A DNA stretch of 64,000 bases, from positions 22,569,108 through 22,633,107 of the forward strand of contig JABAKD010000023.1 of assembly GCA_012845835.1 (NCBI GenBank). The letters run 5' to 3'. Source of the stretch: Undaria pinnatifida (lineage: Eukaryota; Sar; Phaeophyceae; Laminariales; Alariaceae). This document shows positions 16,340 through 49,811 of the stretch, one piece after another; position 1 is the first letter of the stretch; every line of letters begins with the position of its first letter. The notes beneath the pieces are model-generated. The model saw only the letters and a list, made by a program, of their open reading frames with translations, was not told where the DNA came from and ran no database searches. The translations under genes were made by a program, and so were the position numbers.

Positions 16340-18713
16340 ATCAAAAGGCTCTATTCTGCTTTGCATTTGCTTTGCATCGCGCCGCAATCCAAACTGCTCT
16401 GCACGCTCGCCACTCGAACACTACCCATATTTTAGAAGCTCGAATGCCTTTCTACACACATCCCTGGAATGTCATGAGCTGGGGATCACCGTGCACGTAC
16501 CGATAGACCCTAATAAGCCAACGTTTTCGGTGAGGATGGCCCCCTGCGTCGACAACCACCACGGCCAAAAAGGCGATACAGATCATCAGGTCTAGTTGGA
16601 GCGACACTGGAGCCTTGACCTGACCGGGCGAGTCTGTTGTCCGTGCCGTACGCGCAGCAGCAAGGCCAGCAACATGCAGCAATATCGTGAGTAGAAGGGT
16701 GACGCTTTCGCTGGTACTTTCATGCGCTTGATTGGTTGTGTATCGTTGTCTCGTAGGCTTCGTTTGACTAGATTCTGGTCAGGTTTGTAGGCGCTGTTTT
16801 CGTACGCTCCATCGCACGAATACATCATTGCGCACGGATACAACCAGTACAACCAGTCAGTGCACAAAACAGCAGCTACCATCTAACTGCTGTGTTGCAA
16901 CAACAATAGGCCGCGGACAGCGGCGGTAACAGTACTAGGTACACCGCAGAGGGTAACAGACTGCTGGGGTTGCTACTGTGCAGTGGTAGAGGTAATGCAC
17001 ATTGCTTTGAGCGGTTGCTGCGGCGGTCGCGGCTGCTGTCTGCGGCATCGTATCATATTGCACGCGTTGAGCACAGTCATCGCGTAGTCACATGTGGAGG
17101 ACATTGGCGGAAAAAGGTTCACCATCAACAGCAACGCGTGACAGCGGCAGCAGCGGCAACTGTGTTGCTACTGTATAGAGTGATAGAAGCTGTGTCAATT
17201 ACTTTTTTAGACCTCTGCTGCTGCTACTGCTGCTGCTACTAATGCTGCTGTCCTTCTTCTACTGCTACTGCTGCTGCTGCCCGCGGCTTGTGGACAGTGG
17301 AGCACCAGAGAGTGTGTAGTGTTGTTGGTAAGACACGACAGTTGACCTTCTTGTTGGTGATTGACTGTTGTTGAGGATCTGATCTGGTGTGTGGACGTCA
17401 TCTAGATCTGAAGACAACTACTACTGTAGTAGGGGTTTCTATTTATCCTCTTCTGGATTCTGATATAGGGATTCGGGGATGAAGTTAAGATCGCTTGTTT
17501 TCTTGTGTTCGGAGCTAATAATACAACAACTTATCTCTCCTTCCTAGCACCTGAATGGTGCTGACCAGCCCCCCTCAGGCCAAGGGGGGACACTTTCTGG
17601 GCAGTAGACCTTGCCTAGCTTAGGCGTGTCTACAATTATCGATAATTCAGGTTGAACACACCGACGTTAGTCAGGGATTTTTTCTGGTACGATTGCGACA
17701 GCGGCACGCAGGTATGGATTGGGCCGCGTTTCGGCAGGAAGCCCTCGACCCGATGAGGGCGGTGTCCATATGCTGCATCAGGACTCCGACCGAGGTCTGC
17801 TGTGGTTGTACGAGGGGCCGCTAGAGGCGATGTCCAAGCATCGCACCCGGCGTGGAGGGTCTGCAGCAGCAGGCTCCACATCTGATGATGGTGAGGTTCG
17901 AATCGGGTTGATTCACTTGGTTCTGTGAAATCTCGCAGTGTAGGCACGATTTTGATCCGCTGAAGGTTCAACTCGGGCAGCAAAGACACACCCGCCTTAC
18001 AGGCTCCCCAACGCACGTACCAGATACCGTATTGCCGGACAACATGCACACCGCGCACGTAGTCGATATACTGCTTTACCAGGTGTGGAATAACAGCGGC
18101 AGTGATAGGCATGGCAACAGCAACTGTCACATGAAGCAGCAGTAGCCGCAGCAAAAGCTGGGGTTTATGTTGTACAGTATCAGTAGTAGCTGTGTCGGTT
18201 CCGCTAGCTGTTGAGGATGTTGTTGCTGTTGTTTACGGCGTCCTGCTGTTCGTATCGCCGAGCAACTACTGTCGCCGTATAGATATAATTACATTTGTCC
18301 TCGAAAATTCTTTAAGCCTTATTCACTTGGTTAATGGGACCTGCTTCGCTCTCAGCGCTCCCACTTGGAACACGCCTGCCTAAACCCCCCTCTCGGAGAA
18401 CCTTCCCGCCTTTCTTCGCGTTCCTTACTTTCTTCGCTTTCTTCGTTTCCTTTTTTCCCGTTTCTCTTTTTATTTTCTTCATTCCGTAACTTTATCCAAC
18501 GTATGATCTACGACTTTCAGGTGTTTAATTTCTTTTTTACCAACGTATGATCTACGACTCTACGACGCATCTACGGCGCAAAGTCGTGAGATGTTGAAGT
18601 TGACTGCCGGCTTTTTAGTGTTCTACGAGTAGGCACCTACTTTCAGCTCCCTACGCTGGCCACCTGTCGCCGTAGCGCTTCCCCACCACTTCACAACTCG
18701 GAGATCGAGAAGC
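16340..18713. other. no gene recognised; CTG tracts and upstream region of gene A
   Basis: Includes CTG/CAG-rich tracts (about 17215-17281), TGCTTTGCAT decamers (two near 16354-16373, more at 14863-14940), a pyrimidine-rich stretch (about 18400-18480) and a duplicated phrase CAACGTATGATCTACGACT (near 18497 and 18541) just upstream of gene A. The last two could belong to the gene A promoter or 5' UTR, but no TATA or initiator can be assigned. Confidence 0.4.
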
Positions 18714-19116
18714 ATGTCGTCTTCAAGCATCTATCGTAGCTCTCCTGCTAAAAAGCCGAAGCCCACCAACCAAAGCCAAGGAGGGGGAGGTGGTGGAGGC
18801 TCTGCCGGTGGCGGTGGTAGGGGTGGGAGTGGGGGTGGGGGTGCAGGCTGGACCGTGGTCGGCGGCGTTGCGGGCGTGAGAAAGACGTACCCGTGCTCTG
18901 GCAAGCACTGCTGTGGGGGCGCAGTCAACATCCGCAACAGGCGGAATTCGGCTTTGCTCTTCGGTGTCTGCGACACCTGCGGAGTTTACTTCAATTACAA
19001 CAAGAAGTTCTGGGGCACCGGCGACAACCCCCGAGGGTGTGATTGGTGCGGAGAGGACACTGCTGACAGCCCGTCTATCGGTGTCGAAAACGACGGCCCC
19101 GACAAGGCGTCCAAAC
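18714..19116 (+). CDS. gene A exon 1: Cys-rich zinc-ribbon-like protein
   Basis: Starts at a true ATG and gives 134 codons plus one base before a strong donor (C|GTGAGT). Residues 1-22 are Ser/Lys/Pro-rich. About 23-45 are almost pure Gly/Ser. About 55-134 form the conserved part: C61-x4-C66 and C86-x2-C89, spaced like a zinc ribbon, then NKKFWGTGDNPRGCDWC (C109, C112) and DSPSIGV. Gene B on the opposite strand keeps the same spacing (VCDTC, NKNHWGSGDNPRVCDW, DSPSIGV) and the same donor phase, strong evidence that the frame and splice are real. Function is unknown; zinc or nucleic-acid binding is a guess. Confidence 0.75.
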
Positions 19117-19243
19117 GTGAGTCGGATTTCCTTCGCATTACTTCCGCCGCTTTTGTTTTCGTGTGGCGACCGCGCCGGTGTTTCCTTTTTAGGTGTTTGA
19201 TCCCCGCGGTGTGCCACCAAGCCAGTCTAGCAGGCATGCCCGG

Positions 19244-19871
19244 TTGGTGAGTGGTGTTCATCACTTTTCCACCCATTCTGCGGTTCGTCGCTGCGTGATT
19301 TCATTAATACGTTTCTGTTCGAGTGTCTGCGCTCTACCTGTTGTGTTGTGGAACGCTTGGCTGCTTCGTACCTTACGGTTGTGATGTGTGTGCGTGCTTG
19401 AAATCATCACACTCACACGCCGTTTGCTTCTTCTGCTGTCCTTTTTGTTGCAGCGTGGTACAACCACCAGCATCACTTTTCCACCCATTCTGCGGTTCGT
19501 CGCTGCGTGATTTCATTAATACGTTTCTGTTCGAGTGTCTGCGTTCTACCTGTTGTGTTGTGGAACGCTTGGCTGCTTCGTACCTTACGGTTGTGATGTG
19601 TGTGGTTGCTTGAAATCATCACACTCACACGCCGTTTGCTTCTGCTGTCCTTTTTGTTGCAGCGTGGTGCAACCAGCAGTATCACTTTTCCACCTATTCT
19701 GCGGTTCGTCGCTGCGTGATTTCATTAATACGTTTCTGTTTGAGTGTCTGCGTTCTACCTGTTGTGTTGTGGAACGCTTGGCTGCTTCTTACCTTTCGGT
19801 TGTGATGTGTGTGGTTGCTTGAAATCATCACACTCACACGCCGTTTGCTTCTGCTGTCCTTTTTGTTGCAG
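19244..19871 (+). repeat. three ~209-bp tandem units, each ending in the exon-2 splice acceptor
   Basis: Within gene A intron 1, a unit starting near TCACTTTTCCACC occurs at 19261, 19473 and 19682. Each ends CTTTTTGTTGCAG followed by CGTGGTRCAAC, i.e. the 3' splice site plus the first bases of exon 2. The AG positions are 19452-19453, 19661-19662 and 19870-19871, exactly 209 apart. Only the third continues into the conserved exon. The first two could act as decoy acceptors and lead into non-conserved sequence. Confidence 0.85.
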
Positions 19872-19984
19872 CGTGGTACAACTACCACGCAGTGAGGAAG
19901 GAGTGCCTGGGCAGCAGGACCAGCGAGGAGCTCAAGTTTGGGTGGATCGTCCCAGAGGGGAGTCCCGTGATTGGCGTGCAGTAA
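19872..19984 (+). CDS. gene A exon 2
   Basis: Follows the third TTGCAG acceptor in the same phase as gene B exon 2, so the joined codon is Pro followed by WYNYHAV. It reads to EGSPVIGVQ and a TAA at 19982. Gene B has PWSNYYTV and EGSPVVA at the matching ends and then splices at GTAAGC. In gene A the matching site reads GTGCAG, a poor donor, so A either stops here (about 171 aa) or has lost the link to its third and fourth exons. Conserved length and both edges support the exon. Confidence 0.7.
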
Positions 19985-20018
19985 AAAAATGCACTCCGTT
20001 TTTGCTCTATTGATGTTA

Positions 20019-20719
20019 GACCTACTATTATGGCGAATATTTTCATCGATTATTTCTCTCTTTAACCGGGATCTCCGACGACAAAAATAAAAACCTTCCA
20101 CTATGGGACCAGAAATCATCGTTATTTTTGGGTTCAGAAATAATCGAGGCCAGAAATCAGCGGATCTGGTGATTTCTGAGCCCAGAAATAACAGCTCTTC
20201 CAACCTCTCAGAACTGGGATTATTTGACTTTTGGATACTACCTCGTACCAAGGATCACATGTCATCACTGCTTATACTGTACCTGGTATGATACTTGTCT
20301 TCTGTACACGTCACGCATCACCCACAACAAAGAATCACAAACACACCGATGACAGCATACTGCGCTTGTTGTGTGCGAGACAGAGCTTCATCCTCACACA
20401 AACGCGACAGCAGCAGCACCACCACCATCGAAACGACCTCAGGCACACCACACCAGCACCACAGCAGCAGCGCAGCAGAAGAGACCGCAGCAGAGGCGGT
20501 GGTGACCTAACGTCGCCGGCGACAGTAGTGTACGTGCCAGATTTCAAAAATAAAGGCAAACGGCAAAACAAGACCTACCAATTCAAAATAAAACCACTTT
20601 CCAAAAATCAGAAGCCATAATGGACGCTCCTTATTTCTGATGCAGTTATTTCTGGAGCCTCAAAACTACAAAAATAATCGCCAGAAATAATCGCTCAAAA
20701 TTTTCCATAATAGTAGGTC
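20019..20719 (+). mobile_element. ~0.7 kb non-autonomous TIR element with TTA duplication, copy 1
   Basis: The ends are perfect 15-bp inverted repeats (GACCTACTATTATGG), extended by imperfect GATTATTTCT pairs. TTA lies on both sides (20016-20018 and 20720-20722). A TTA duplication is the hallmark of PIF/Harbinger elements, and a Harbinger-like transposase fragment is at 35.1 kb. The interior repeats CAGAAATAA phrases and has a CAGCAGCACCACCACC tract. A second copy lies at 37662-38353. No transposase is encoded. It lies 30 bases past the gene A stop codon. Confidence 0.75.
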
Positions 20720-20722
20720 TTA

Positions 20723-21604
20723 GTGTTGACCCAGAGTTTCTTTTTTCCTTTTTCTCCCGTGGTTCGAAGTACATCGCAGGCTCTGAGACGCTTCGTTGTC
20801 CTAAAATTAGGCAGACCGAGTACGACTCCTGGCTTCCGACACTGTTGTAGGCCGGCGACTGCTGTGGGGTAATATTTTTCACGTATGATGTACTCGCGCG
20901 AGACGAGAGAGTGTTGTGCACCTGCTTCTGCTCACATCACGAACACGCGGCGTGGTACTTTCATCATGCAACAGGGCGGGTGGGTTCCTGCTGTTTATTT
21001 TTCGTTTTTCCGATCTGCTGTTGTAGGCCGCCTGTCGAGTAAGAGCAAAGGAGCGAAGTTTGTCCCGGGAGGTTGGGCGCCAGGTATTTTTGGTGGGAAA
21101 AATAGAGCCGCAGATATTTTTTTCGGCTGAACAACTGAACCATGCTGCTTTTCTGTTTTTTTCGGCCCGTTTTATTCTCTCACTCTCCTGAAACCCCCCC
21201 ACACTTTTGGCGTGGTGACTTGGAAGCCTGTTGCTTGATACCTGCTCGTCTGTCCAGAGACAGCAGAGACAGTATTCGTTGTAATCACAAGTCATCTACA
21301 TACAGCAGGATGTACGTATCCAGGCTCCAGAACCCTCCCACAATCCAGCAGACCGAGTACTCTTATGCTGCACAGCAGTACGTACGTATAACCACCCTAC
21401 GTATTATACCAACCACTAGACTAATGGTTTATTTTCATATTTTCACCTTCGTTGAAACTACCGGTACGACCGTACACCAAGAACAGAAGCGCAGACGAGA
21501 GTAGGTGAACGGTATCAGGTATTTTGGTGGACAAACTGGGCGGGATCTTAGATTGCTTCACGTTTTCGGCTGTGACAGTAGTTGCATCACGTTGTCGTTT
21601 GCAG
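20723..21604. other. no conserved exon; intron or intergenic
   Basis: Between the TIR element and the A-type exon 3. Open frames here have no match to the gene family. Confidence 0.4.
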
Positions 21605-21775
21605 AAGGTCTGCGAGGCCGCGGAGAGGGGTGATCAGGTGGGGAACATCATTCAGCAGAAGTGCACTGGCACCATCGCGGAAGGGCACCTGCTGCTCAAG
21701 AAATCCGGAGACTACCTCTTGGAGGAGCCCCCTGCGCTCCACTACCATTGCGCCATGCGCGATGTCGACATTGAG
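21605..21775 (+). CDS. A-type exon 3
   Basis: Acceptor GTTTGCAG, 57 open codons in phase 0, donor GAG|GTACAT. The frame begins KVCEAAERGDQVG and ends RDVDIE. It aligns along its length with gene B exon 3 (KPCEAVAEGRQVG ... KRAFDIE) and with a third copy at 31390-31560, with the same acceptor and a GTAC donor. It probably was exon 3 of gene A, but gene A exon 2 now ends in a stop rather than a good donor, so membership is uncertain. Two Cys (VCEA, KCTG) are kept in all copies. Confidence 0.7.
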
Positions 21776-22355
21776 GTACATATATATATACGCTGTAACC
21801 ACAGACTTGATTTATGCATATTATATACAAGGGCTTCGCTCGCGGAAGGAGGAATGGACATTCAGTAGAAAGGCGGAAAAGAAGCACGAATGGCGCAACT
21901 GGCGACTTGAAAATGCCAAGAGGTCCATATACAGTACAACGGTAAACGATGGAGACGAATATGATTATGAGTTTGTTATTATCATCCATTCGCCCAGTCC
22001 ATGATGGGCACGTCGGAGGACTTGCTTGACATATCCTTCCACCTCTCAGGTAGCACCTGTACACTTATTAGCAGCTCTCTCTAAGTCGATCATCAATAAT
22101 AAATTATCGCAGTGCATAAACACCAGGCACGCGCTTGTCAAGGATAGACAGGAAAACTACAACTTAAGATGTAAAGGAGCGCAGTGCCAAAAAAAAACAT
22201 GCTGGAAGCAGGAACTTGAACGCACACACCGCAAACATGTGAAGTACATTTGTATTCCCAAGGACGAAGAGCATGCATTTAGGCATAGTGCTCAAACAAC
22301 GATGCTGGTATAGTCTATAGAAACAACAACTTAACGTTCTATAAAGAATGTGCTG

Positions 22356-22457
22356 TCAACATTGCTTCCGAAGGAGCATGCAGGCTTGCTTGGACTCCTC
22401 CTCAGCGGAGGTACCCAGCTCCTTGTACTCTTGTTGTTTGTCGATGATCTTGTGAAT
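22356..22457 (-). CDS. gene B exon 4 (terminal)
   Basis: On the minus strand an acceptor TTTGTGGACAG precedes 33 codons and TGA: IHKIIDKQQEYKELGTS, an acidic EEE stretch, then CMLLRKQC. The phase matches exon 3 (both phase 0). The same start is seen on the plus strand at 25550 (LHRIIAKKLEFELLGTS), which supports the acceptor choice. An identical copy lies at 31001-31102. Probably a short charged helix at the C-terminus. Confidence 0.7.
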   Translation of the reverse strand: MHKIIDKQQEYKELGTSAEEESKQACMLLRKQC

Positions 22458-22744
22458 CTGTCCACAAACGTTGAAGTATAGCGGGAGGACGTCGATAAGT
22501 ATGTGTAAAAAAGTATTCGAACTTCTCTCCAGCAGACGTCGTAACCATCCGAACTATTGGAGCTCCTTCTTTCGTTGTTAGTAATTGTGGTGGTTTTGTA
22601 CTTGCTCTTGGTACTTGGAAGAAGAGCCGCACTTCATAGACTATATCCGCACGCAATCCCCTATTCTCGAGCAAGAGACATGGATGTCTCGAATATTAAT
22701 AGAGACTCGCGACACTCAGGACGCAAGATAAGAATAGAACGTAC

Positions 22745-22909
22745 CTCGATGTCGAACGCCCTCTTGGCACCGTGGGAGTGGAATGCGGGATGTATATCGA
22801 GCAAGTGGTAGCCTGCCTTCTTCAGGTCACCGACCTTGATGTCGCCGGTGCACTTCGTGTTTATGTCCTCGCCGACTTGGCGGCCCTCGGCGACTGCTTC
22901 GCAGGGCTT
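22745..22909 (-). CDS. gene B exon 3
   Basis: Acceptor GTCGTTTGCAG, 55 codons in phase 0, donor GAG|GTACGT. Starts KPCEAVAEGRQVG and ends HSHGAKRAFDIE. It is two codons shorter than the A-type exon (21605) and the third copy (31390), both of which keep LLLKK where B has LKK. Thus the third copy is not a simple recent copy of present-day B in this exon. The acceptor sequence TCGTTTGCAG is also identical to that of the A-type exon. Confidence 0.75.
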
Positions 22910-23407
22910 CTGCAAACGACAACAACGGATGGGAATATCTAGCGTTCAGTGAATGTTCAAAATAGTAAGGCCACGTAGCTGTCGTCGGTTTCCAAAGTTT
23001 GAAAGGAAGTAGTACAATTTAACACTGATGTAATAAAAGCGGTCGTTTATGGGCAAAGCCCTGCCTGGTACCACAACGTTGCTAACACCTATGAAACCAC
23101 CACTGGGACAGGAACGAACGGGATTCACAGTCGCAACTGGTAAGCGTAAGCCCCGGTATACTGCTAAAGAAGGCCTACCGGCGGAATACCGACAACGAAG
23201 GGTAAGAGTCAGTACCTGCTGTATATTATATTGTTCCGTACTACTCTATTACTGCTGCTATCAATACTATTACGACCGACGTGTACTGCGATTCCTGAAG
23301 AGGTTGCGCAACCTACTTGTACTCGTTAATACAAAGAGTTTATGTGGTTGTATAAAAAATGAGTAACAGTAGTAGTACACCGCGTCACTACATGAACAAC
23401 TCGCTAC

Positions 23408-23455
23408 CCCAATCACGGGACTGCTCTCCAGCACCACCCAGGTTAACTTCAGCTT
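23408..23455 (-). pseudogene. truncated exon-2-like segment
   Basis: On the minus strand AAACAG precedes 16 codons KLKLTWVVLESSPVIG and then GTAGCG. This matches only the C-terminal half of exon 2 (KFALVVTEGSPVVA in B). The donor is weak. It is either a relic of an extra exon 2 or an alternative exon. Present also at 32068-32115. Confidence 0.55.
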
Positions 23456-23479
23456 CTGTTTAATTCTATATATCAACCT

Positions 23480-23906
23480 CCAGTGTGTACTGCGACTGGT
23501 GCTGATGGTATCATGCTGCTGTTATTTATCACTGCATGGACCATGTTTACAACCCTGGCTGACCCCCGTGATGGGACTTGCCCGTTTTCATTGCGTCTTA
23601 CATGCGTAGATACCACGTAGTCGTAGTCGTACATCCAAAAAGTGTGTTTATATCCCAGCACAAAGCGTCACTGCATGGACCACTTCTTCAACCCCCGCTT
23701 ACCCCGATGACGGGACTGCCTCGTACTCGTAGTCGTACATACATGAAGTGTGTTTGGTTGTACGTTGTACAACCCCCGCTTACACCCCGATGACGGGACT
23801 GCCCCGTACACGTACTCGTACATACAAAAAGTGTGTTTGGTTGTACGCATGAAAAAGAAATCACAGCACGCAGTCACTGCGTAGACAACTAGTACAACAT
23901 GCTTAC
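23480..23906 (-). repeat. minisatellite built on the exon-2 donor, copy 1
   Basis: Units of roughly 100-135 bp in gene B intron 2. On the minus strand each contains GGGCAGTCCCGTCATCGGGG followed by TAAGC or a variant: the codons for GSPVIG plus a 5' splice site. CATACGTACAACC and CACTTT phrases follow. Units are centred near 23565, 23700 and 23780, next to the true exon-2 end at 23907. The same array is longer at 33043-33600. Confidence 0.75.
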
Positions 23907-24010
23907 CGCGACGACGGGACTGCCCTCCGTGACCACCAAGGCGAACTTGAATTTGTTCAGGCTACACGTCCCCAAGCACAGCTTCCACACCGTGTAGTAG
24001 TTCGACCACG
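23907..24010 (-). CDS. gene B exon 2
   Basis: Acceptor GCTACACCAG, then CG + 34 codons (WSNYYTVWKLCLGT ... VVTEGSPVVA), donor GCG|GTAAGC. The split codon with exon 1 gives Pro as in gene A. Length and edge residues match gene A exon 2 (WxNY at the start, EGSPVxx at the end). Confidence 0.75.
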
Positions 24011-24338
24011 CTGGTGTAGCACACACATGCTACAGCAAACGTTGCAGACAGGCACACAAGGTCAAACAATGTAAATTTCAATGTGCATCATTATTGGAAA
24101 CAGGATTCGCTTGAGTTCACCAACACCCAAAACCACATGGTCTATTGCGCACAACTTGCAGCACACTCCGCCAACACTCAACGCAGCACTACCGAAAATA
24201 CAGGGTGTTGACATCTAGTGTCTTACCTATGTCGCACGGCGCTGAACGCACTGACAACGGGAACAAACTCTCAGCATCAGTAGTATAGTAGCTGACAGCA
24301 AACATCACATTCCAACAACACGAAGAAATGAAACTCAC

Positions 24339-24729
24339 GTTTCGTCAAGCTCTCAGCTCCTTCGTTAGGGACGCCGATCGAAGGTGAATCACGGGTGCCC
24401 GCGTCACTCCAGTCACATACACGAGGGTTGTCGCCGCTTCCCCAGTGATTCTTGTTAAGGCTATGAAGAGCTTGGCACGTGGAAGGGTCGTCACTCCTGC
24501 AGGTGTCGCAGACAGCGTACTGGGAACTCCTGTTTTTTCTATCTCGTGCGATGAGGAAGCCGTCACAACCCTTGCTCGGGCACGGCCAATCAGGGTTGCC
24601 AGAAGAAGCTGAGTCCCGTTCTTGCCCGACCAGCGTCCACACGCCTGATCCTGAACCTACATCACCCCCACTGTTGGCGGAGCCTCCTCCCGCACTAGCC
24701 TTGGTCCGCTTCGCAAATTTCAACTTCAA
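24339..24729 (-). CDS. gene B exon 1: Cys-rich zinc-ribbon-like protein, start codon unclear
   Basis: An open frame of 130 codons plus one base before donor C|GTGAGT. It has a Lys-rich start (KFAKRTK), a Gly/Ser-rich linker and the conserved block WPCPSKGC, VCDTC, NKNHWGSGDNPRVCDW, DSPSIGV. The second Cys of gene A CDWC is Ser here. No in-frame ATG lies between the upstream TGA and this block; the first codon given is TTG. Either an upstream exon carries the ATG or the start was lost. With exons 2-4 the product would be about 253 aa. It lies antisense between A-type exons 3 and 4. Confidence 0.65.
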
Positions 24730-25549
24730 ATTGTTATTGCCGATCCGGCAAATTTCAAATTCAATTTGTTTGCAGCCGTCAACGGCAATTCCCTCTCAAC
24801 AGCCAGCAATTGGCCAACTTCAAATGTAGAAGTACAAAAAAGAAGTTGCTGAAAAGCTAAATAAAAATATCAGAGAGCAAGCAGTAAAAAGATCAGAGAA
24901 TGAGAGCTAAAAATTAGACTATAGGGAAAGCAAGGAAGGCAAGGAACTTCGGGACGGTTATTTTCCCCAGCAACTAATTTTCTTTTCGGCAATTACGGGC
25001 TGAGAAGGGCTGAGAGGGGGGAGGATATGCCGGAAGGCAAGGAACTTCGGGACGGTTCATTTCCCCAGCAACTAATTTTCTTTTCGGCAATTACGGGCTG
25101 AGAAGGGCCGAGAGGGGGGAGGATATGCCGAGCGAGACCTCCGAGGGGGTCGAAGTTTAAGTAATTAAATTTATTTACGCTCATGCTACATTGTTGTGTC
25201 TTTCTGTAGCTTGGGTGTAATGTTTTTTCCAACCTCCGGCGACCGGCGAGCATTCCGGATCTAACTGCTCTATGTGAATGCACAACCATGACGAGTAACT
25301 AGTTGTTTTTTTATTACTAAATAGTAAATAGTGGTGGTCTGTACTGCGGGTGCAGTCACTACTGGCAGCATCACCGCTCGGGTATTCGTACTCAGAATGT
25401 GAACGAAGTATGCTTTGACCATCGGTATACCATTTCGATAGTGTTGCCCTTCAGTTTTCAACGAAATTATATGAAACTGTTATGATGTTAATAATATGAT
25501 GCAATAATCAACGCCACACTGCCCCTGAATTTGAAACGCGCGTGCACAG
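24730..25549. other. no gene; region upstream of gene B with a 98-bp tandem duplication
   Basis: Directly upstream of gene B. AAATTTCAAATT-like phrases near 24720-24770 are AT-rich and inverted-repeat-like. The two 98-bp units are listed separately. The rest shows no coding features. Confidence 0.4.
24934..25131 (+). repeat. 98-bp unit, two near-identical tandem copies
   Basis: GGCAAGGAACTTCGGGACGG ... TTTTCGGCAATTACGGGCTG ... GAGGGGGGAGGATATGCC occurs twice, 98 bases apart, with about three differences. A recent duplication. Confidence 0.9.
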
Positions 25550-25603
25550 CTGCACCGCATCATCGCCAAGAAGCTGGAGTTCGAGCTCCTCGGAACCTCC
25601 GGG
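25550..25603 (+). CDS. A-type exon 4 (start conserved, end unclear)
   Basis: Acceptor CGTGCACAG then LHRIIAKKLEFELLGTSG in phase 0, matching gene B exon 4 start IHKIIDKQQEYKELGTS. Upstream in the same frame is a stop, so an acceptor is needed. The frame stays open to 25849 but past GTSG it no longer resembles gene B, and no good donor is seen. It could be the last exon of gene A or a relic. Confidence 0.5.
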
Positions 25604-25706
25604 TTGCATCTTTGTGTTCCCGCAGGCCGTGGGTTATTTCCTATCATCGGAGTTTGTGAACCTGTTGCACACCAAAAAGTATGTGAAACTAACTCGACAT
25701 TTTATG

Positions 25707-26450
25707 TTTTTCCCTGCAGGTCGTCGCAGTTAGATTTTTGTTGTTGCGTGTCGTGCAATTGTAGTCTCGAGTTTGTGCGTAACGTATGTCTATGTTATTT
25801 CGCGCCAATACAGAGCCATAGCAAGTTGCATCGTATGTTGGTCAGGTAGTTTGGTGCATGATTGTATTCCCTCACATCGTGGGCTGTTTCGTACCGTGGT
25901 GTTTGAGTTTGTTCGTAACGTGTCTATATTTTTCCCTGCAGATCGTCGCAGTAGATTTTTGTTGTTGCGTGTCGTGCAACTTTGTAGTCTCGAGAGTTTG
26001 TGCGTAACGTGTGTATATATATGCAATTTCGCGCCAATACAGAGCCGTAGCGAGTTGCATCATATGGTGGTCATGTATTTTGTTGCATGTTTGTGTTCCC
26101 TCGCATCGTGGGCTGTTTCGTACCGTCGACGTTTGTGTTTCTTCGTATGGTGTGTCTATGTTATTTCGCGCCAACGAGTTGCATCACATGTTGGTTAGGT
26201 AGTTGCTTCGTGCTTGAATTCCCTCACATCGTGGTCTGTTTTGTACCGTCGATGTTGGTGTTTGTACGTAGTGTCACTTCGCGCCAACACTGAGCCGTAG
26301 CGAGTTGCATCATATATTGGTCAGGTGCTTGCTTCATGTTAGTATTCCGTCACATTGTTGGCTATTTATAACCTTTAGATGCAGTCCTTTGACTTTCATA
26401 TTCCCCTGCAGATTGTGACAAACTGTTTTGTGATATTGCGTGTCGTGGAA
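25707..26450 (+). repeat. degenerate tandem array with acceptor-like phrases
   Basis: Blocks with TTTCGCGCCAA(T/C)A..GAG, AGTTGCATC, GTGGGCTGTTTCGTACCG and TTTGTGCGTAACG recur 3-4 times with uneven spacing. TTTCCCTGCAG, a good polypyrimidine-AG acceptor, occurs near 25713 and 25930, with a variant near 26403. Open frames across it are probably by-products. Confidence 0.6.
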
Positions 26451-26483
26451 ATTTGTGCATTAAATAGGCACAGTATGATCAAC

Positions 26484-27345
26484 CTTCGTTGAAAGGGTTT
26501 TCGTTTTTCGATGTAGTGTTGTTATCACAGTGTTCCACTTCGACTACTTGCTCGTATTCATAGCTATTCGTAGATGTTTTTCTGATAGTCAAGCGCATAA
26601 CTTAATGGCAGGTAGTACAGCCACGTGCATGTCCAATGTGCACCGGGTGCTCAGATGCCTTTTCCGTATACTGCAAGTAGTCCAGAAGTATAGTATAATA
26701 TTACAGGTCTAAGTTAGGCGTCCGCGGTATACGACCACGTTTTGCATTCGTATTATGCGTCCTACCATTAAGCTTCGTTAGAAGGGTTTTTGTGTTTCGA
26801 TGTAGTGTTGTTATCACAGTTTTCCACTTCGACTACTTGCTCGTATTCATAGCTATTCGTAGACGTTTTTCTGATAGTCAAGCGCATAACTTAATGGCAG
26901 GTAGTACAGCCACGTGCATGTCCAACGTGCACCGGGTGCTCAGATGCTTTTTTCCGTATACTGCAAGTAGTCCAGAAGTATAGTATATTAATTTAAGGTC
27001 TAAGTTAGGCGTCTGCGGTATACGACCACGTTTTGCATTCGTATCATGCGTCCTACCATTAAGCTTCGTTAGAAGGGTTTTTGTGTTTCGATGTAGTGTT
27101 GTTATCACTGTTCCACTTCGATTACCTGCTCGTGGCTATAGACGTTTTTCTGGAAGTCAAGCGCGTAACTTAATGGCAGGTAGTACAGCCACGTGCATGT
27201 CCAAATGTGCGCCGGGTGCTCAGATGCTTTTTTCCGTATACTGCAAGTAGTCCAGAAGTATAGTATAATACGATAGGTGTTAGTTAGGCGTCTACGGTAT
27301 ACGACCACGTTTTGCATTCGTATTCTGTGTCCTACCATAAGCATG
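26484..27345 (+). repeat. three tandem ~290-bp units
   Basis: Units start CTTCGTT(A/G)(G/A)AAGGGTTTT at 26484, 26773 and 27064 (periods 289 and 291). They share GATGTAGTGTTGTTATCAC, GGTAGTACAGCCACGTGCAT, GTGCTCAGATGC and TACGACCACGTTTTGCATTCG. About 90-95% alike by eye, no conserved coding frame. Confidence 0.9.
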
Positions 27346-27995
27346 CCGTGGTGATGCACTACGATTTCGCATTTGTTTCAGTTTTAATAGCTAGTTGCAT
27401 CCTTTTGAACGCCGTGCGCATGCCAATAGATGTCCAGTAGTATCGTAGCAGAGCCCTTGTACTTATATACACTTACACAGATTGTCCAAGTACACAGGTT
27501 GTTAAGTGCACAGGTACTGTACTCTGGTTGGTAGGAAGCTCAAGTCATCCGAGATAGGAGTCAGCAGCATCTGTACAGCACCGTTTCTCTCTTCGCCCAT
27601 GCTTCTTGAAAAAAAAGGTGCTCATATATTGATGGGAACCTCAACGCCGAAGCATCCATCGGGAGCACAATACGGCCTTTGGCAGGAGTGAGAAACGCGG
27701 ACAACGGGAAAGGATTCCGCCACGTTAAGGTGAGGTTGACTGGTTGTCAAGTAGATGGCGCGGAAGGACGATTCGTTCATGTCTCCTTCAGGCTTGAGCA
27801 ACGTGCACCGCAACGCATGTGATGCGCGTCACGTTCTACCGTGGACGTTCATCTCTTGAACTTGTTTCCATCCCATACCTCACATCCTTTCACGTTCTTC
27901 CCCTCCTCAGATGTACAGTATTGACGTAATGGCGTCCAGACTGTTTCTGCCTGCTGACGTGTGACTGGTGATGCTGTTCCCTACCACTCTTTCAG
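27346..27995. other. no gene recognised
   Basis: Unique-looking sequence after the 290-bp array. No domain or repeat match within the window. Confidence 0.4.
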
Positions 27996-30467: not shown

Positions 30468-31000
30468 ATACAAGGGCTTCGCTCGCGGAAGGAGGAGTGG
30501 ACATTCAGTAGAAAGGCGGAAAAGAAGCACGAATGGCGCAACTGGCGACTTGAAAATGCCAAGGTGTCCATATACAGTACAACGGTAAACGATGGAGACG
30601 ATTATGATCATGGGTTTGCTATTATCATCCATTCGCCCAGTCCATGATGGAAACGTCGGAGGACTTGCTTGGCATATCCTTCCACCTCTCAGGTAGCACC
30701 TGTACACTTATTAGTAGCTCTCTCTAAGTCGATCATCAATAATAAATTATCGCAGTGCATAAACACCAGGCACGCGCTTGTCAAGGATAGAGACAGGAAA
30801 ACTGCAACTCAAGATGTAAAGGAGCGCAGTGCCAAAAAAAAACATGCTGAAAGCAGGAACTTGAACGCACACACCGCAAACATGTGACGTACATTTGTAC
30901 TCCCAAGGACGAAGAGCATGCATTTAGGCATAGTACTCAAACAACGATGCTGGTATAGTCTATAGAAACAACAACTTAACGTTCTATAAAGAATGTGCTG

Positions 31001-31102
31001 TCAACATTGCTTCCGAAGGAGCATGCAGGCTTGCTTGGACTCCTCCTCAGCGGAGGTACCCAGCTCCTTGTACTCTTGTTGTTTGTCGATGATCTTGTGA
31101 AT
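31001..31102 (-). pseudogene. third family member, exon 4 copy
   Basis: Same 33 codons and TGA as gene B exon 4, no difference seen. No exon 1 or full exon 2 is found further right on this strand, so this copy lacks the start of the gene. Confidence 0.65.
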
Positions 31103-31389
31103 CTGTCCACAAACGTTGAAGTATAGCGGGAGGACGTCGATAAGTATGTGTAAAAAAGTATTCGAACTTCTCTCCAGCAGACGTCGTAACCATCCGAACT
31201 ATTGGAGCTCCTTCTTTCGTTGTTAGTAATTGTGGTGGTTTTGTACTTGCTCTTGGTACTTGGAAGAAGAGCCGCACTTCATAGACTATATCCGCACGCA
31301 ATCCCCTATTCTCGAGCAAGAGACATGGATGTCTCGAATATTAATAGAGACTCGCGACACTCAGGACGCAAGATAAGAATAGAACGTAC

Positions 31390-31560
31390 CTCGATGTCGA
31401 ACGCCCTCTTGGTACCGTGGGAATGGAATGCGGGAGGTATATCGAGCAAGTGGTCGCCTGCCTTCTTTAGGAGGAGGTCACCGACCTTGTTGTCGCTGGT
31501 GCACTTCGTGTTTATGTCCTCGCCGACTTGGCGGCCCTCGGCGACTGCTTCGCAGGGCTT
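31390..31560 (-). pseudogene. third family member, exon 3 copy
   Basis: 57 open codons between GTTTGCAG and GAG|GTACGT. It keeps the LLLKK present in the A-type exon but missing in gene B, and has IPPAFHSHGTKRAFDIE at its end. The exon is intact although exons 1 and 2 are missing from the copy. Confidence 0.65.
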
Positions 31561-32067
31561 CTGCAAACGACAACAACGGATGGGAATACCTAGCGTTCAG
31601 TGAATGTTCAAAATAGTAAGGCCACTTAATGGTAGCTGTCGTCGGTTTCCAAAGTTTGAAAGGAAGTCGTACAATTTAACACTGATGTAATAAAAGCGGT
31701 CGTTTATGGGCAAAGCCCTGCCTGGTACCACAACGTTGCTAACACCTATGAAACCACCACTGGGACAGGAACAAACGGGATTCACAGTCGCAACTGGTAA
31801 GCGTAAGCCCCGGTATACTGCTAAAGAAGTCCTACCGGCGGAATACCGACAACGAAGGGTAAGAGTCAGTACCTGCTGTATATTATATTGTTCCGTACTA
31901 CTCTATTGCTGCTGCTATCAATACTATTACGACCGACGTGTACTGCGATTCCTGAAGAGGTTGCGCACCCTACTTGTACTCGACAATACAAAAAGTTTAT
32001 GTGGTTGTACGAAAAATGAGTAACAGCAGTAGTAGTACACCGCGTCACTACATGAACAACTCGCTAC

Positions 32068-32115
32068 CCCAATCACGGGACTGCTCTCCAGCACCACCCA
32101 GGTTAACTTCAGCTT
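32068..32115 (-). pseudogene. exon-2-like segment, second copy
   Basis: Identical in reading to 23408-23455 (KLKLTWVVLESSPVIG, then GTAGCG). Confidence 0.5.
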
Positions 32116-32337
32116 CTGTTTAATTCTATATATCAACCTCCAGTGTGTACTGCGACTGGTGCTGATGGTATCATGCTGCTGTGTTATTTATCACTGCATG
32201 GACCATTTTTACAACCCTGGCTGACCCCCGTGATGGGACTTGCCCATTTTCCTAGTCGTACACCCAAAAAGTGTGTTTATATCCCAGCACAAAGCGTCAC
32301 TGCATGGACTAGACCATTACTTGTTCAACCCCCGCTT

Positions 32338-33042: not shown

Positions 33043-34157
33043 CGCTAACCCCGATGACGGGACTGCCCCGTACTCGTAGCCGTACATACATGAAGTGTTT
33101 TGTACGTATGTAAAAGAAATCACAGCACACAGCGTCACTGCATAGACCATTATTACTTGTACAACTCCCGCTTATACCCCGATGACGGGACTGCCCTGTC
33201 CACGTAGTCGTGCATACGTAAAGTGTATTTATTTCGTTGTTACGTATGAAAAAGAAATCACAGCACACGCACAGTGTCACGGCATAGTCTAGACCATTAC
33301 TTGTACAACCCACGCTTACCCCGATGACGGCACTGCCCCGTACTCGTACTCGTACATACACGAAGTGTGTTTGGTTGTACGTGTGAAAAAGAAATCACAG
33401 CACACAGCGTCACTGCATAGACCATTAGACTACTTTATAGCTCCCGCTTATACCCCGATGACGGGACTGCCCCGTCCACGTAGTCGTCCATACAAAAGTG
33501 TGTTTGGTTGTACGTATGAAAAATAAATAACGTCACACAGCGTCACTCATGGACCTAGTCGTACATACATAAAGTAAGTGTTTTTGGTTGTACGTATGAA
33601 AAAAAACACAGCACACAGCGTCACTGCGTAGTTTAGACCATTACTTGTACAACCCCCGCTTAGGGCCGTTCTTATCGGAGAGCTTTTTTTGTCCTATTTT
33701 TCCTCTTTTTCCAAAATTTCCTAATTTTCCATCTATTTTTGTCTTAAAATACGGAGGCGTTCTGTCATAAATTAGGAAATTCTTCAGCCCTAAAAAATAA
33801 ATATGAAATGGGGTGGACGTAGTCGTCCATACAAAAAGTGTGTTTGGTTGTACGTATGAAAAATAAATTACGTCACACAGCGTCACTCATTCATGGACCT
33901 AGTCGTACATACATAAAGTAAGTGTTTTTGGTTGTACGTATGAAAAGAAATCACAGCACACAGCGTCACTGCGTAGCTTAGACCATTACTTGTAAACCCC
34001 CCGCTTAGGGCCGTTCATATCGGAGAGCTTTTTTTGTCCTATTTTTCCCATTTTTCCTAATTTTGCTAATTTTCCATTTTCGTCTTAAAATACGGAGGCG
34101 TTCTGTCATAAATTAGGAAATTCTTCAGCCCTAAAAAATAAATATGAAATGGGGTGG
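33043..34157 (-). repeat. expanded exon-2-donor minisatellite plus a duplicated ~150-bp module
   Basis: Units of ~125-145 bp with CCCCGATGACGGGACTGCCC recur near 33050, 33180, 33320 and 33457, with CACAGCACACAGCGTCACTG and GACCATTACTTGTACAA. Past 33540 the unit is shortened and combined with a T-rich module (AGGGCCGTTC(T/A)TATCGGAGAG ... CATAAATTAGGAAATTCTTC ... GAAATGGGGTGG) at about 33662-33816 and 34008-34157. The minus strand of this module reads LGLKNFLIYDRTPPYFKTK in both copies. Confidence 0.75.
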
Positions 34158-34434
34158 TTGTAGATAGAGTAAATCGAGAGTGTGTAACGCCTTCCAGGTC
34201 CGATACAAATAATGCCTGCGACGTAATTGGAAACCTTTTTTCCATCACTATGAAAGTATGCCCACCACGAATTTCTGGGAAAATTCTCCGCGGAAATTTC
34301 CGGCAACATTCTCGCATAACTGCTGCGACAGCAGAAATCAATGCGCCTTCTTCGTAGATCGGGATGTTGTGTCCTAAAAACTGGGAGACAGACGGCATTA
34401 TTCGTCTTGTGTGTGGGCCATCCTCGAGATGCAT
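34066..34434 (-). CDS. hypothetical ORF sharing its tail with a repeat module
   Basis: An ATG frame reading through VSQFLGHNIPIYEEGALIS and MRECCRKFPRRIF. It ends in the module-encoded LGLKNFLIYDRTPPYFKTK. The middle looks protein-like, but a second overlapping minus frame is also open over 250 codons, so coding status is uncertain. No family recognised. Confidence 0.2.
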   Translation of the reverse strand: MHLEDGPHTRRIMPSVSQFLGHNIPIYEEGALISAVAAVMRECCRKFPRRIFPEIRGGHTFIVMEKRFPITSQALFVSDLEGVTHSRFTLSTTTPFHIYFLGLKNFLIYDRTPPYFKTKMEN

Positions 34435-37661: not shown

Positions 37662-38353
37662 CCTTATGGCGAATACTTTCATCGATTATTTCTCTCTTTA
37701 ACCGGGATCTTCGACGCCGAAAATAAAAACCATCCACTATGGGATCAGAAATCATCGTTATTTCTGGGTTCAGAAATAATCGAGGCCAGAAATCAGCGGA
37801 TCTGGTGATTTCTGAGCCCAGAAATAACAGTTTTTCCAACCTCTCAGAACTGGGATTATTTGACTTTTGGATACCACCTCGTACCAAGTATCACATCTCA
37901 CCACTGCTAATACTGTACCTGGTATGATACTTGTCTGCTGTACACGTCACGCATCACCCACAACAAAGAATCACAAACACACCTACGACAGCATACTGCG
38001 CTTGTAGTGTGCGAGACAGAGCTTCATCCTCACACAAACGCGACAGCAGCACCACCACCACCATCGAAACCACCACAGGCACACCACACCAGCACCACAG
38101 CAGCAGCGCAGCAGAAGAGACCGCAGCAGAGGCGGTGGTGACCTAACGTCGCCGGCGACAGTGTACGTGCCAGATTTCAAAAATAAAGGCAAACGGCAAA
38201 ACAAGACCTACCAATTGAGAATAAAACCACTTTCCAAAAATCAGAAGCAATAATGGACGCCCCTTATTTCTGATGCAGTTATTTCTGGAGCCTCAAAACT
38301 ACAAAAATAATCGCCAGAAATAATTGCTAAAAAATTTTCCATAATAGTAGGTC
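37662..38353 (+). mobile_element. ~0.7 kb TTA-type TIR element, copy 2
   Basis: About 95% like 20019-20719 by eye over its length. The right end keeps CCATAATAGTAGGTC. The left end is changed: only TTATGGCGAATA remains, abutting the neighbouring inverted-repeat element, so the left TIR tip is lost. Non-coding. Confidence 0.75.
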
Positions 38354-38374
38354 TAAAAAAACTACAAAAAAGAA

Positions 38375-39901: not shown

Positions 39902-41971
39902 ATTGGCGTCGAGGCAGTGAAGCTCGATCGGTGCTAGTAACCCGACCGAAAAGAGCGGGTAAGCTTCATCTGAAAAAGACCCGCACGTTTGTCCCGCTTG
40001 CCATATGGCAGATGGGACAGACCCCCCTGGTCCTGGGGATGTTCATACGGACCTAGACACCCTTCCCCCACGTCTGGAGGGAAGGGGCCTTCCCTCACGT
40101 CCTGAGGAAAGCAATTTGAATCAAGACCAGGAAGAGGAGGAAGAGGTAGAAGAAGAAACCTACTTCAGCCCCCGCGAGCCGTCACCTAGCCAAGATTCTT
40201 CCGAAGAAGAGCAGAGGCGACACCGTTATGGTCGCCACCGTAGTCGTCGTGGGCGTCACCGCCGCCGGTCGTTCTCCCCCGTAGGGAAAGGAGCAGCTGG
40301 TGAAGTCTCCTTTCCTCATCACATGGTCAGTAGTTCCCCACAACAGCAGTCGCTCGTTAGCGAAAGTAACATTGCCAAGTTGAACGAACTGCTTAATAGG
40401 TCGTTGATTGAAGGTCTTACAAGCAATATTGCTGACCTGTTGTCTACGTTGACGGGTAGAGTACAACTAGCTCCATCCGAATCAAGCAGCCTAAAAATAG
40501 GCAGTTCAGTCCCGTCTGTGTCATCTGTTAACACGAGGATGACAATGTCCGACTCCGGTCCTATCTCCAAGTTTTCAGAAAACGAAAACGACAAGAATAG
40601 CATCCTTGGTGTTATGTCGCAGTACAAAGCATTCGTTACCGCGTCGTTAAAGTCACGTCCCGGCGTCACCGAGGACATGATTGATGACCTCCTCATAGCA
40701 TACTTCATCTTCGTGTTGAAGGACGAGGCTATCCAGTTTTATACCCAGCTGGTAGGAGGTCAGGTTCCGTGGAGACGTAGTGCTGATGTAGATCGGCAAC
40801 TGTCAGATGCCGGAAGCAGCGCAAAACCGACCTCGTGGTCGGAAATGAAAACTGCTTTTGAGACGTCGTACTTGTCAGCAGACGCTCTGGCACGCTCAGT
40901 AGAGCAGACAGTCACCCTGACTCAGGGTCCAAATGAGTCAGTCACGTCATATGTAAACCGTCTCCGAGATAGTTTTAACAATTAAAAACCGTCAAGTTCA
41001 AAAACATTTACAGCCTGTAGAAGCTTTGCAGATCGGAATTTTGAGCGTGGGTTACGCCCAGAATTTTCGGAACTACAACGCATTGGCCACTACTGTAAGT
41101 CCATGCAGCAGGCAGTCGATAGGGCCCAGCGTAGTGCTGCTCCCTAGCAGCAGTCGATGTCACAATCAGTGCCATGTCGTGGTCGACTGTTGCGCGCGGT
41201 CGTTCTAGAGCTCAGGTGCGAGCAGTACGCGGCCCCGAGAGTCGTCTTGAACGTAGACGCTCACACAGTGGTTCTCGTAAGAACCACGGTTCAGCGGCAG
41301 CAGCAGCATCTCACTTGTCCAGTTCGAAGATGCCTGCAGCTAAGTCGTCTACGTCTAGGTTGAAAATCACGCGTGATCACTCACCCTGTTCAGTATCAGG
41401 GTGTACGGCTAGAGATAAGTTCAGTCACGCCAGTAATGATTGTTTTAACCACCCCCTGTTTGGGGAGGCTAACCTAGCCCGGTATCGAGAGAGGAGAGCT
41501 CGCCGTCAGAAGTCCACCTGACGGTGCCCAGTTGTGGAAGTCGTTTCCGCAGTTGGGAGTTCGTTTAGGGTTTCCCCCAAGATCAATTGTCCATCGGTTT
41601 CTGTAAGGTCGGGTAACCCGAGGGACGACAAAAGGAAGCACGTGCTTTCCGAGTCGCTCACCCTCGAAGGTATGTCCATCGGTGATGAGACAAGTAAGGA
41701 TGCTGCAGTCGTAGATCCTTCCCCTGTGAGTAAGCGTGTGCGTTTTGCAGACGGTGTACCTGGTAGGTCGTTGGTTGACATGTGTCCCGCAGACCCCCAT
41801 GTAGGCAATACGCAGGCGTATTTTTCTTGCCAGTACCTAGTGAATCAGTGTCTAGGGATGTAGGTATTAGGCAGGTGGATTGTTCGTTGCCAGTGATTGA
41901 TAAGTCTGTGTCTATGGATGTCAATGAAGACTGCCCCCGATCAGAAAGGAGCAGTACTCATAAAAAGAAAA

Positions 41972-43150: not shown

Positions 43151-44050
43151 TAAAAAAAAGATGAAGAATGGTACGCCTGTGCTTTATCGCGTCGTACGCG
43201 ATCGCCGCTTACGCTTGCTTTCTCGTCTCATCGCGTTCATATATGTGGACGTATTGGAGGCTTCGAAGTGCCTCGTGTCACTGTTGACACGGCAAGCGAT
43301 GTTCCATGTGTGGCTTTCTCGTTTGTGAAACGCCACCCTATCTTGAAAAATGAACCGATACATGTCATTCCACCCGCTGTGCTCACGTTGAAAGCCGCAA
43401 ATGTATCAGTGATGGAAATGCTAGGGTTCATTCGATTCAATTTACAACTGGGGGACGTCACTCGCCCAGTAAAAGCGCTTATCATTTTATCGTTACGTCC
43501 TGATGATATCCTGTTAGATAACAGCGTCATGTCATTATTTAGTGCGAAACTTGACTGGAAAAATCAGTGTATCACTTTTCACTCAAGCGAAACCACTATA
43601 CCTGTAGTTCATCGTGTTGATTCAAGTACCACTGGATCATCAATTTCCCCAGCAGAAGTAACCTCTGCGTCTGTCGCATCCGTCCATGCTGACTTTGAGG
43701 CTATCCCTGTTTGTCTGAAATCTTGTTTTATTTACCAGCAGGAACTGAGGCATCGGTTGTTGTTTTCACCGATACAAAACCTCTGGTTGATACTGACGTC
43801 GTATTCGAACCTCGTACGGTATCTCAATCCGAATTATCCGAAAATATTGGAATAAAAAATTCCAAACTTTCGAACGTATTGTTGTTGCACGTACTGTAGC
43901 AACATGGCGTGCAGTGGACGGGTCCGTCTGGTTGCAAATCGCCTATCCGTCTACGCGCGATGTCACTATACCCGCACATCTAGCACTTGCGCTCTTGTTA
44001 ACAGCCAGTGTGACGGATGATCGTGAATCACAGATAAGTGCGGTAGCTGC

Positions 44051-47400: not shown

Positions 47401-49811
47401 GTAATACTTTCCCCCTATGGACACAACGGCCTTCTTCCCTCCCTAACTTTTTATCTGATCTACATCTAGTTTCACGAGCAACCCCTTTTCTAATTGCCTT
47501 CGACATCGAACATCCCGTACAAGCATCTAGGCTACCAGTCAACTTGATACCCAGTCGCTTTGCAGTAGTACGAAGCAATCCTTCATGTGAGTGAGCATAA
47601 ATGTTATGAAAGTCATTCACATCCATACTCGTTTCGTGCTTGGGGTTTGAAGGAGTGAGGGCAGCCAACACGGATCCAATAGAGTCATCACCCACACGAT
47701 ACGCAGTCGCAACAAGCATGCCATCGAAATTATCAAAAGTCACATGTCCGTGGAAAGCAGTCATCACACCACGAGGACCACCAAGACCATTCCATGACTC
47801 GCCATCAATTCTGCGCTGGGGGAAAAAAGGTTGTACCCCAATTTGGGATAGTACAGCACATTCTTTAACTCTACCAAAAACTCGTTGTCAGCAGACACGA
47901 ACACCAATTCCAGAGTTCCTAAAAGAGCTACCTCACAAGTCACGCCACCAATTCCCTTTACATTCTTGTGGCAAGGCTTCACATCCTTCATACACGAGAG
48001 AGAATCTGTCATGTGGAAAGCGGTACCTGTGTCTGCATACCAATCTTCGAAACACCTCTTCTTGGTGAGAGTGGCATATTCACGAATAGAATCACGAATA
48101 ACACGATCACTACCGACATAGTTCCTTATCCTGTCCGCCACTTCACTATACAGCGTTGGAATATCAGCACCATAAGAATTCACCCAATTCACCAGTAGAG
48201 TCATACCACGATGCAAGATACGTGTGTCATCACTCCAATCGTTTGAGAGATTTTGGGACAGAAACACCATGATATCATTCCAGATATCCCTCAGGTCCGA
48301 GTCAGTTTGGGACAGAAGCACTAACAACTCAGATATCTTACCGTTTTCATCCTTGACGTCCTTGGATGATCCGGTCTGGGAGGGATGAGCGATCACACGA
48401 ACCAGGCAATCCTTCTTCACGTGACCGACCTCCCCACACTTGAAACACTTCCCTTGAAACGCCGTTTTCTTAGATGAATCAGACTCGGAGTTAGACCTTG
48501 ACTTGTAGTTCTGCTTCTTCGCACTCTTCTTCTCAGGCCTAGACATCAGAGCAACACTGGGTTTCTTCGGACCACCTTGAGTCTGCAAATCGAGGTACCG
48601 CTCACGCACTTTAGTCTCTATGAACGACGGGTCATTCGGGTAGAACACCACCAGAATTTCACGCAGAGTCTTATATTCATGCGACAGCCCCTCGAGAATC
48701 AGGTTGCACACCTCTCTGTCATCTTTCTTGACTTCCAGCATTTGAAGCACACCAAGCGTCTCTCTCACAGATGCAAAGAAGATCGAGGGATTCTCATTCG
48801 AGCGCATGCGCAGTGATTTGAGTTTCTCCTCTTGCACACGAATCTGACTCTGGCTCAACGGCAGTAAATGATCTTTCAGCACTCGAAAACCCTTGCTGGA
48901 AGAACCAGCGTGGCGAACCATAGTTTTCAGACTATCCTTCTTCAAGCAGTCGAACAGAAACCACCATGCCATCTCAGCCTGACGCAGCGCACCCACACTG
49001 AATCCTTTCTCTACCCAGGGGGTCAAGTCGAAACCAATGTCAGCAATCGGAATCTCAGTCTCGGAAACAAACGCCTCATACAGATTGTTGTGCCGGGCAC
49101 TTAGCAGAAAATTCTGCGACCATGAGGGGTAAGACACGTCTGTCCCATCGAAAACAGGAGCCTTGAGAACTTTGAAAGGACCCCCACCCAACTTCTCTCC
49201 TGTATCAGTAATGCCGGCCCTAGGAATCAGATTGTTTCCATTTCCACACTTTCCCACCACCTGCTCGACGGAGTAGGTTCGGGAGGAACAGAGGACTGGC
49301 TTCCGAGAGCCCTACCTACAGTCCCGGGAACGAAAGATTGGCTACCTACAGCCCCACTTCCAATCCCAATCGAAGCAAAGCTTGCAGCACCAGCAGAGTA
49401 ACGATTAACAGCGAATACATTAGGGTTCAAGCCTGAGCCAGCAAGGCTACTACTCCCAAACCCCATGCTGGACACGCCAAGGCCTTGGGCATCGCCGCCC
49501 GTACCTCCCGCGGTCCTGCCAGTAGCATCATCGGTAGAATGCGTACCACCTGCGCGACAGCAGACACAGAGGAGTCCACTTGCTCCTTCTGGTGATCAAC
49601 AAGCGACGTGACTAGAGTCGTAAGTTGGGACAACTGCGTCTCTAGGGAAACCATCCTCTCACCAACATCCTGCGGATTACTCTGAACTCGGCCACCCGCA
49701 GGTGTCCCCGTTTCAGCCATGATGAGACAGGTTGATCAGGCCTCTCTCGTACAACAGTCTAGTGTAGCCCAAGGGGACGACGGAGCAGTAGACACCTTTG
49801 CCGCTATAGCG

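Follow-up and report, generated by a model that had tools for sequence, protein, structure and literature searches.

In a stretch of 64,000 nucleotides of the Undaria pinnatifida genome (assembly GCA_012845835.1, contig JABAKD010000023.1, positions 22,569,108 to 22,633,107 of the forward strand; hereafter the window) two homologous four-exon genes, gene A on the forward and gene B on the reverse strand, appear to be interleaved. We conclude, with a probability of about 95%, that this apparent gene pair is a Helitron-like element (element B) nested in a related Helitron-like element (element A). Both are non-autonomous: they are without RepHel, the transposase of their full-length relatives, and each still carries a copy of the cysteine-rich four-exon gene, here called gene 1. 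The interleaving is an accident of insertion, that is, ordinary transposon nesting, and gene 1 is the only part with novelty. For the genome as a whole, the U. pinnatifida genome paper gives 2,784 rolling-circle elements, making up 0.2% of the sequence (PMC7058681).

Element B, read in the sense of its gene, begins at 25173 (TAAATTTAATTAC..) and ends at 21828 (..GCGAAGCCCTTG). In 20 B-type loci (L009-L028) homology breaks off at precisely these two termini, amid unrelated flanking sequences, and B exon 1 has at least 40 full-length genomic matches at 96-100% identity, the window included (40 of 665 candidates were scored). The site without the insert is preserved: in L059, a sister copy of A, the A-type sequence runs uninterrupted as GCATATTATATATTTACGCTCATG, while in the window element B lies between ATTATATA and TTTACGC; a second sister copy, L060, likewise has no element B at that site. 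The target is intact in both, and element B was inserted between A and T without target duplication.

Element A is itself a dispersed repeat. Its 5' end, TAGATATAATTACATTTGTCCTCG, is common to the A-type copies (19 distinct flanks), its 3' end (..AGAGCCCTTG) lies at 27459, and other genomic copies start to align at 18278-18294. Protein searches of the genome returned at least 152 matches to A exon 1 and at least 150 to exon 3. At 25600/25601 a deletion junction joins exon 4 to sequence situated approximately 5.6 kb further on in a full-length copy. A query spanning this junction was matched across it by five copies, of which four cover the query completely and one covers positions 1-209; all other matches are one-sided. 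Because the junction is shared by five copies, element A belongs to a small group of derivatives that have no RepHel. After the RepHel deletion the window copy of A gained a miniature inverted-repeat transposable element (MITE) and element B. A-type loci which span the MITE site without the MITE join 20017/20018 to 20720-20724; a second MITE copy is located near 37664-38354 of the window. The antisense-looking pair thus becomes a dated series of events, comprising an A-type element, its internal deletion, the MITE insertion and the B insertion.

The autonomous form is represented by a full-length relative of approximately 10.9 kb on the contig that holds the window (C30), which was built from the overlapping loci L037 and L061. 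It has the same ends, save for a few bases at its start that are missing at the point of contact with a B element. The gene order is gene 1, exons 1-4, followed by a 1651-amino acid frame; exon 4 ends ..PEQEAKQACAGIPADLGDHF and a stop codon, after which comes a donor-like GGTAAGC. The long frame contains the Pfam domains Helitron_like_N (1.4e-35), PIF1 (1.6e-55), Pif1_2B and OTU (2.3e-6), and its residues 124-1436 can be aligned with the Helraiser chain (E = 2.2e-149). HxH and YxxxY motifs are the hallmarks of Rep proteins, and the frame possesses HxH and YLYKY together with an N-terminal CxxC..CC. The RepHel expected of an autonomous Helitron is therefore found in L037 plus L061, and is itself absent from the window copies.

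Gene 1 and RepHel are linked across the genome. When 80 of the at least 150 exon-3 matches were compared with 150 Helitron_like_N matches, 19 were followed on the same strand by a Rep match at a distance of 1,666-2,708 bp, and none of the 80 had one upstream or on the opposite strand within 4 kb. In 1000 random shifts such pairs numbered 0.155 on average and 3 at most. For the remaining 61 exon-3 matches there is no Rep match in range, which is what non-autonomous copies like B should show. The family is strongly enriched on contig C30, which makes up 5.4% of the genome: it accounts for 37 of these 80 exon-3 matches and 43 of the 150 Rep matches, and all five copies bearing the A deletion junction are located on it.

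The ancestral element was a two-gene Helitron, its autonomous form comprising gene 1 (four exons, cysteine-rich, ca. 260 amino acids) and gene 2, a RepHel-OTU transposase. Element A arose from it by internal deletion, in which the transposase was lost while gene 1 and both ends were retained. Element B is a non-autonomous Helitron related to A but present in more copies, and it has a gene 1 of its own type; its insertion into intron 3 of A, in reverse orientation and between A and T, came later. Both would presumably have been moved in trans by the RepHel of full-length relatives.

The layout of the exons is as the original prediction described it: four exon types occur in A and in B, with matching splice phases (phase 1 at the exon 1/exon 2 junction and phase 0 at the later ones, in both genes), and the whole of gene B lies on the other strand between exons 3 and 4 of A. 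A and B are 45-50% identical in the exon-1 cores and 54-59% in exon 3. Over 210 aligned codons they differ at 73, 70 and 117 first, second and third positions, respectively, and the ratio of nonsynonymous to synonymous substitution (dN/dS) is 0.23 (dN 0.44; dS 1.93, which is near saturation). The corresponding ratios are 0.19 between the autonomous and B types and 0.34 between A and the autonomous type. The identity, the third-position excess and the dN/dS of 0.23 show that the homology is real and that the frames were under past constraint; A-type and B-type gene 1 have been subject to purifying selection. What is not supported is the interpretation of the two as host genes in a regulatory antisense layout: B is a Helitron-like element of interspersed occurrence, and it is missing from two sister copies of A. 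The original prediction had missed that both "genes" are dispersed repeats, that B has clean ends and a second copy in the window, that exon 4 of A is cut, and that a MITE occupies intron 2 of A. The coordinates are collected in the table.

Table. Features of the nested elements; positions are those of the window.
Feature	Position	Strand	Remarks
Helitron-like element A	18280..27459	+	Non-autonomous, RepHel deleted; ca. 5.1 kb without MITE and element B
A exon 1	18714..19116	+	ATG, Gly-rich linker, zinc-ribbon-like core with six Cys
Three tandem 209-bp units	19218..19887	+	In A intron 1; exon-2 acceptor and initial codons duplicated at the end of each
A exon 2 (WYNY..EGSPVIG)	19872..19975	+	Donor GTGCAGT in window copy
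MITE, 701 bp	20019..20719		In A intron 2; inverted ends GACCTACTATTATGG; TTA target duplication
A exon 3 (KVCEA..DIE)	21605..21775	+	
Helitron-like element B, 3,346 bp	21828..25173	-	In A intron 3; clean ends; empty site in L059 and L060
B exon 4 with stop (IHKII..LGTS..LRKQC-stop)	22356..22457	-	
B exon 3 (KPCEA..DIE)	22745..22909	-	
B exon 2 (WSNY..EGSPVVA)	23907..24010	-	
B exon 1 open frame	24339..24795	-	No in-frame ATG; two family Cys replaced
A exon 4 (LHRII..LGTS), truncated	25550..25600	+	Cut at 25600 by the deletion junction
Internal-deletion junction	25600..25601	+	RepHel gene of autonomous relative missing; common to five copies, all on contig C30
Second B element copy	30471..32337	-	94.7% identical; interrupted at 32338

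Among distinct flanks, the host base immediately before the 5' end is A in 16 of 19 for the A type and in 11 of 13 for the B type. Immediately after the 3' end it is T in every one of the 19 distinct flanks that a strict B-type pattern retrieved. A looser pattern gave T in five of six, the sixth (L008/L015) being hairpinless and perhaps not an end. No terminal inverted repeats were seen between the element ends, which were compared by eye with no dedicated search. The relatives carry a 9-bp hairpin 14-15 nucleotides from the 3' end; two of these hairpins have folding energies of -16.0 and -16.5 kcal/mol (z -2.1 and -2.8), and 6 and 1 of 200 shuffled sequences, respectively, fold as well.

Several observations weigh against the interpretation of A and B as nested Helitrons carrying a functional accessory gene. 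The 5' flank is not A in three of the 19 A-type and two of the 13 B-type cases, although one of the latter two is the head-to-tail junction in L010. The 3' hairpin is missing in both window copies, and of 19 readable B-type 3' ends seven have none, 11 have it and one (L014) has it in part; in A the 3' region that bears it is gone from the window copy and retained in L059 and L060. According to the Helraiser paper, a hairpin in this position acts as a termination signal whose loss lowers transposition without abolishing it (PMC4778049), so its loss from the window copies is compatible with further spread. The ends read TA(G/A/C).. and ..CTTG instead of the canonical 5'-TC and CTRR-3', for which reason the elements are filed as non-canonical Helitron-like. 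An in-frame ATG is missing from exon 1 in all 22 distinct B-type copies, of which three are frameshifted, and the B version of gene 1 may consequently not be translated as drawn. An AlphaFold prediction of the exon-1 core from eight sequences had a mean predicted local distance difference test (pLDDT) score of 38.8 and gave no usable fold. Lastly, L062, a RepHel relative from another lineage (59% identical), shows no gene 1, which is uninformative as its upstream part reads N.

Two named Helitron classes were tried and rejected: canonical Helitron1 by the terminal letters (TA.., CTTG), and Helentron because the Pfam matches of the RepHel frame include no endonuclease and insertion is at A/T rather than TT.

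The two copies in the window look degenerate. The exon-2 donor is GTGAGT in all 15 other pattern-matched copies as against GTGCAGT in window A (L031 was unmatched by the patterns), and the two cysteines replaced in exon 1 of window B are kept by each of the 18 remaining copies without a frameshift. The altered exon-2 donor and truncated exon 4 of A and the want of an in-frame ATG in B make it doubtful that the spliced products are formed as proposed.

Gene 1 belongs to no family that we could recognize, in agreement with the original prediction. Neither spliced protein had a significant Pfam match, and profile searches of Pfam and PDB with alignments of the gene 1 exons produced sub-threshold matches only. 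For exon 1 the Pfam matches were to IBR (0.029), PknG_rubred (0.036), TRASH (0.089), XPA_N (0.26) and zf-C4pol (0.44); these are mostly zinc-binding domains, and they prove nothing and are not evidence of kinship. The same holds for ribosomal protein L24 (E = 0.027 with the spliced A protein, 0.27-0.99 with the exon-1 profile) and for the weak match of exon 3 to myoglobin (0.31). No match to RPA appeared in the Pfam and PDB searches, though the short exons and low-confidence fold leave room for remote similarity. Using short exact peptide patterns, which detect close relatives only, we found no relatives of exons 1 and 3 in viral contigs, of exon 1 in contigs of prokaryote genomes, or of the Rep core in viral contigs. 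Our searches of the literature, to which subscription papers and preprints do not belong, turned up no Helitron family of brown algae with such a gene.

On the strength of the missing Pfam and PDB matches and the A-B dN/dS of 0.23 we read gene 1 as an undescribed Helitron accessory gene; that it encodes an accessory protein is, in our estimate, an even proposition. The six conserved cysteines of exon 1, one pair of which is altered in window B, suggest zinc binding. By analogy with the plant RPA-like genes, which are thought to act in this way, the gene 1 product might act on single-stranded or terminal DNA during rolling-circle transposition. We would also put forward, tentatively, that stramenopile Helitrons have in gene 1 a hitherto undescribed accessory, spliced and zinc-binding, on which transposition depends or by which it is controlled, much as is supposed of the RPA-like genes in plants. 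Elements such as A and B would then be semi-autonomous, spreading with gene 1 retained and RepHel borrowed.

Two explanations which dispense with Helitrons in the window were considered and rejected. Homologous gene structures on opposite strands, with B wholly within an intron of A, are what would be expected of two host genes derived from an inverted duplication and kept interleaved for antisense or double-stranded RNA regulation. Direct complementarity between A and B consists of stretches of 28-52 nucleotides at 73-89%. Such a host pair is extremely unlikely, since B recurs across the genome between defined ends and is missing from two sister copies of A, A is a repeat as well, and the lesions in the window copies just described tell against it. 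It is also very unlikely that the elements are cut-and-paste transposons which duplicate a TA target, even though most insertions have TA on both sides: in L017 and L023 the 3' flanks start with TT (TTG and TTT) while the 5' end still reads TA, so that the TA is the element's own and there is no target duplication; moreover, the ends are not inverted repeats of each other, and the full-length relatives encode RepHel.

If A and B are nested Helitrons, gene 1 might still be something other than an accessory gene. Its exons 1-3 could be alternative 5' exons of the RepHel gene, making gene 1 a zinc-finger N-terminus of the transposase and not a separate protein. In favour of this, the full-length relative has only about 80 bp between the end of exon 4 and the first ATG upstream of RepHel, and its exon 3 junction is in phase 0. 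Against it, the exon-4 frame stops (..ADLGDHF and stop) just before the donor-like GGTAAGC. The last residues of exon 4 are conserved, all 37 being found whole and free of stops at 22 genomic places, 11 of them at only 62-70% identity, and RepHel already has its own N-terminal CxxC..CC motif; we regard this explanation as rather unlikely. Nor do we think it probable that gene 1 is a captured host gene, a passenger without a role in transposition. Helitrons are known for gene capture, and the B elements multiplied although their gene 1 seemingly has no start. Against this, 19 loci that vary in identity all have gene 1 in the same place and equally far upstream of RepHel, it is constrained between the A and B types, and no single-copy host version was recognized among the matches listed, which could miss one.

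Elements of these types also adjoin one another elsewhere. In L010 two B elements follow each other head to tail without intervening host sequence, in L034 the B 3' end lies four bases upstream of the 5' end of an A-type element, and in L037 the B 5' end stands directly against an A-type 5' end. At 33048-34163 the window contains tandem arrays with units similar to the end of B exon 2 in reverse complement (ACCCCGATGACGGGACTGCC), which looks like the multiplication of a fragment of the element. Among the other features of the window are frames at 44901-51939 on the reverse strand which by eye are like the Gag, integrase and reverse transcriptase of a Ty1/copia retrotransposon, and other frames at 39963-40985, 43154-43855 and 57830-58609 which, again by eye, are retrotransposon-like (gag-, protease- and integrase-like); a tRNA search gave no match.

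The exons of such transposons may be called as genes, and the present case is a warning for annotation pipelines. If gene 1 is a conserved accessory gene, a non-RPA partner joins the poorly known helper proteins of Helitrons, and in the stramenopiles a proto-Helentron with unexplained extra open reading frames (ORFs) is already on record. The Undaria elements resemble Helraiser/Helitron1 in having a RepHel with HxH and two-tyrosine motifs and a PIF1-type helicase, A/T insertion without target duplication and, in the relatives, a 3' subterminal hairpin (PMC4778049); they differ in their ends (TA../CTTG as against TC/CTRR), in the addition of gene 1 and an OTU domain, and in the hairpinless window copies. 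The proto-Helentron of Phytophthora infestans, also a stramenopile, shares a RepHel without a detected endonuclease, A/T insertion and a Helitron-like 3' end (PMC4067079), and in structure the Undaria elements agree with the proto-Helentron class. Its first ORF, too, specifies a hypothetical protein, of 218 amino acids, and it differs in its ends (5'TT/3'CTAG), its length of approximately 14 kb and its SET-domain ORF (PMC4067079). FoHeli of Fusarium oxysporum likewise has non-canonical ends, and FoHeli3 an extra upstream ORF without known domains, but that ORF is in the opposite orientation, and FoHeli has asymmetric terminal inverted repeats and other target preferences (PMC5148889). The Mothra Helitrons of rice carry an accessory gene that is RPA-like (PMC4683698); for gene 1 no RPA match was found. 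As in the Undaria elements with their putative accessory gene, that gene has been kept, RepHel has been lost, and a separate full-length sister family exists (PMC4683698).

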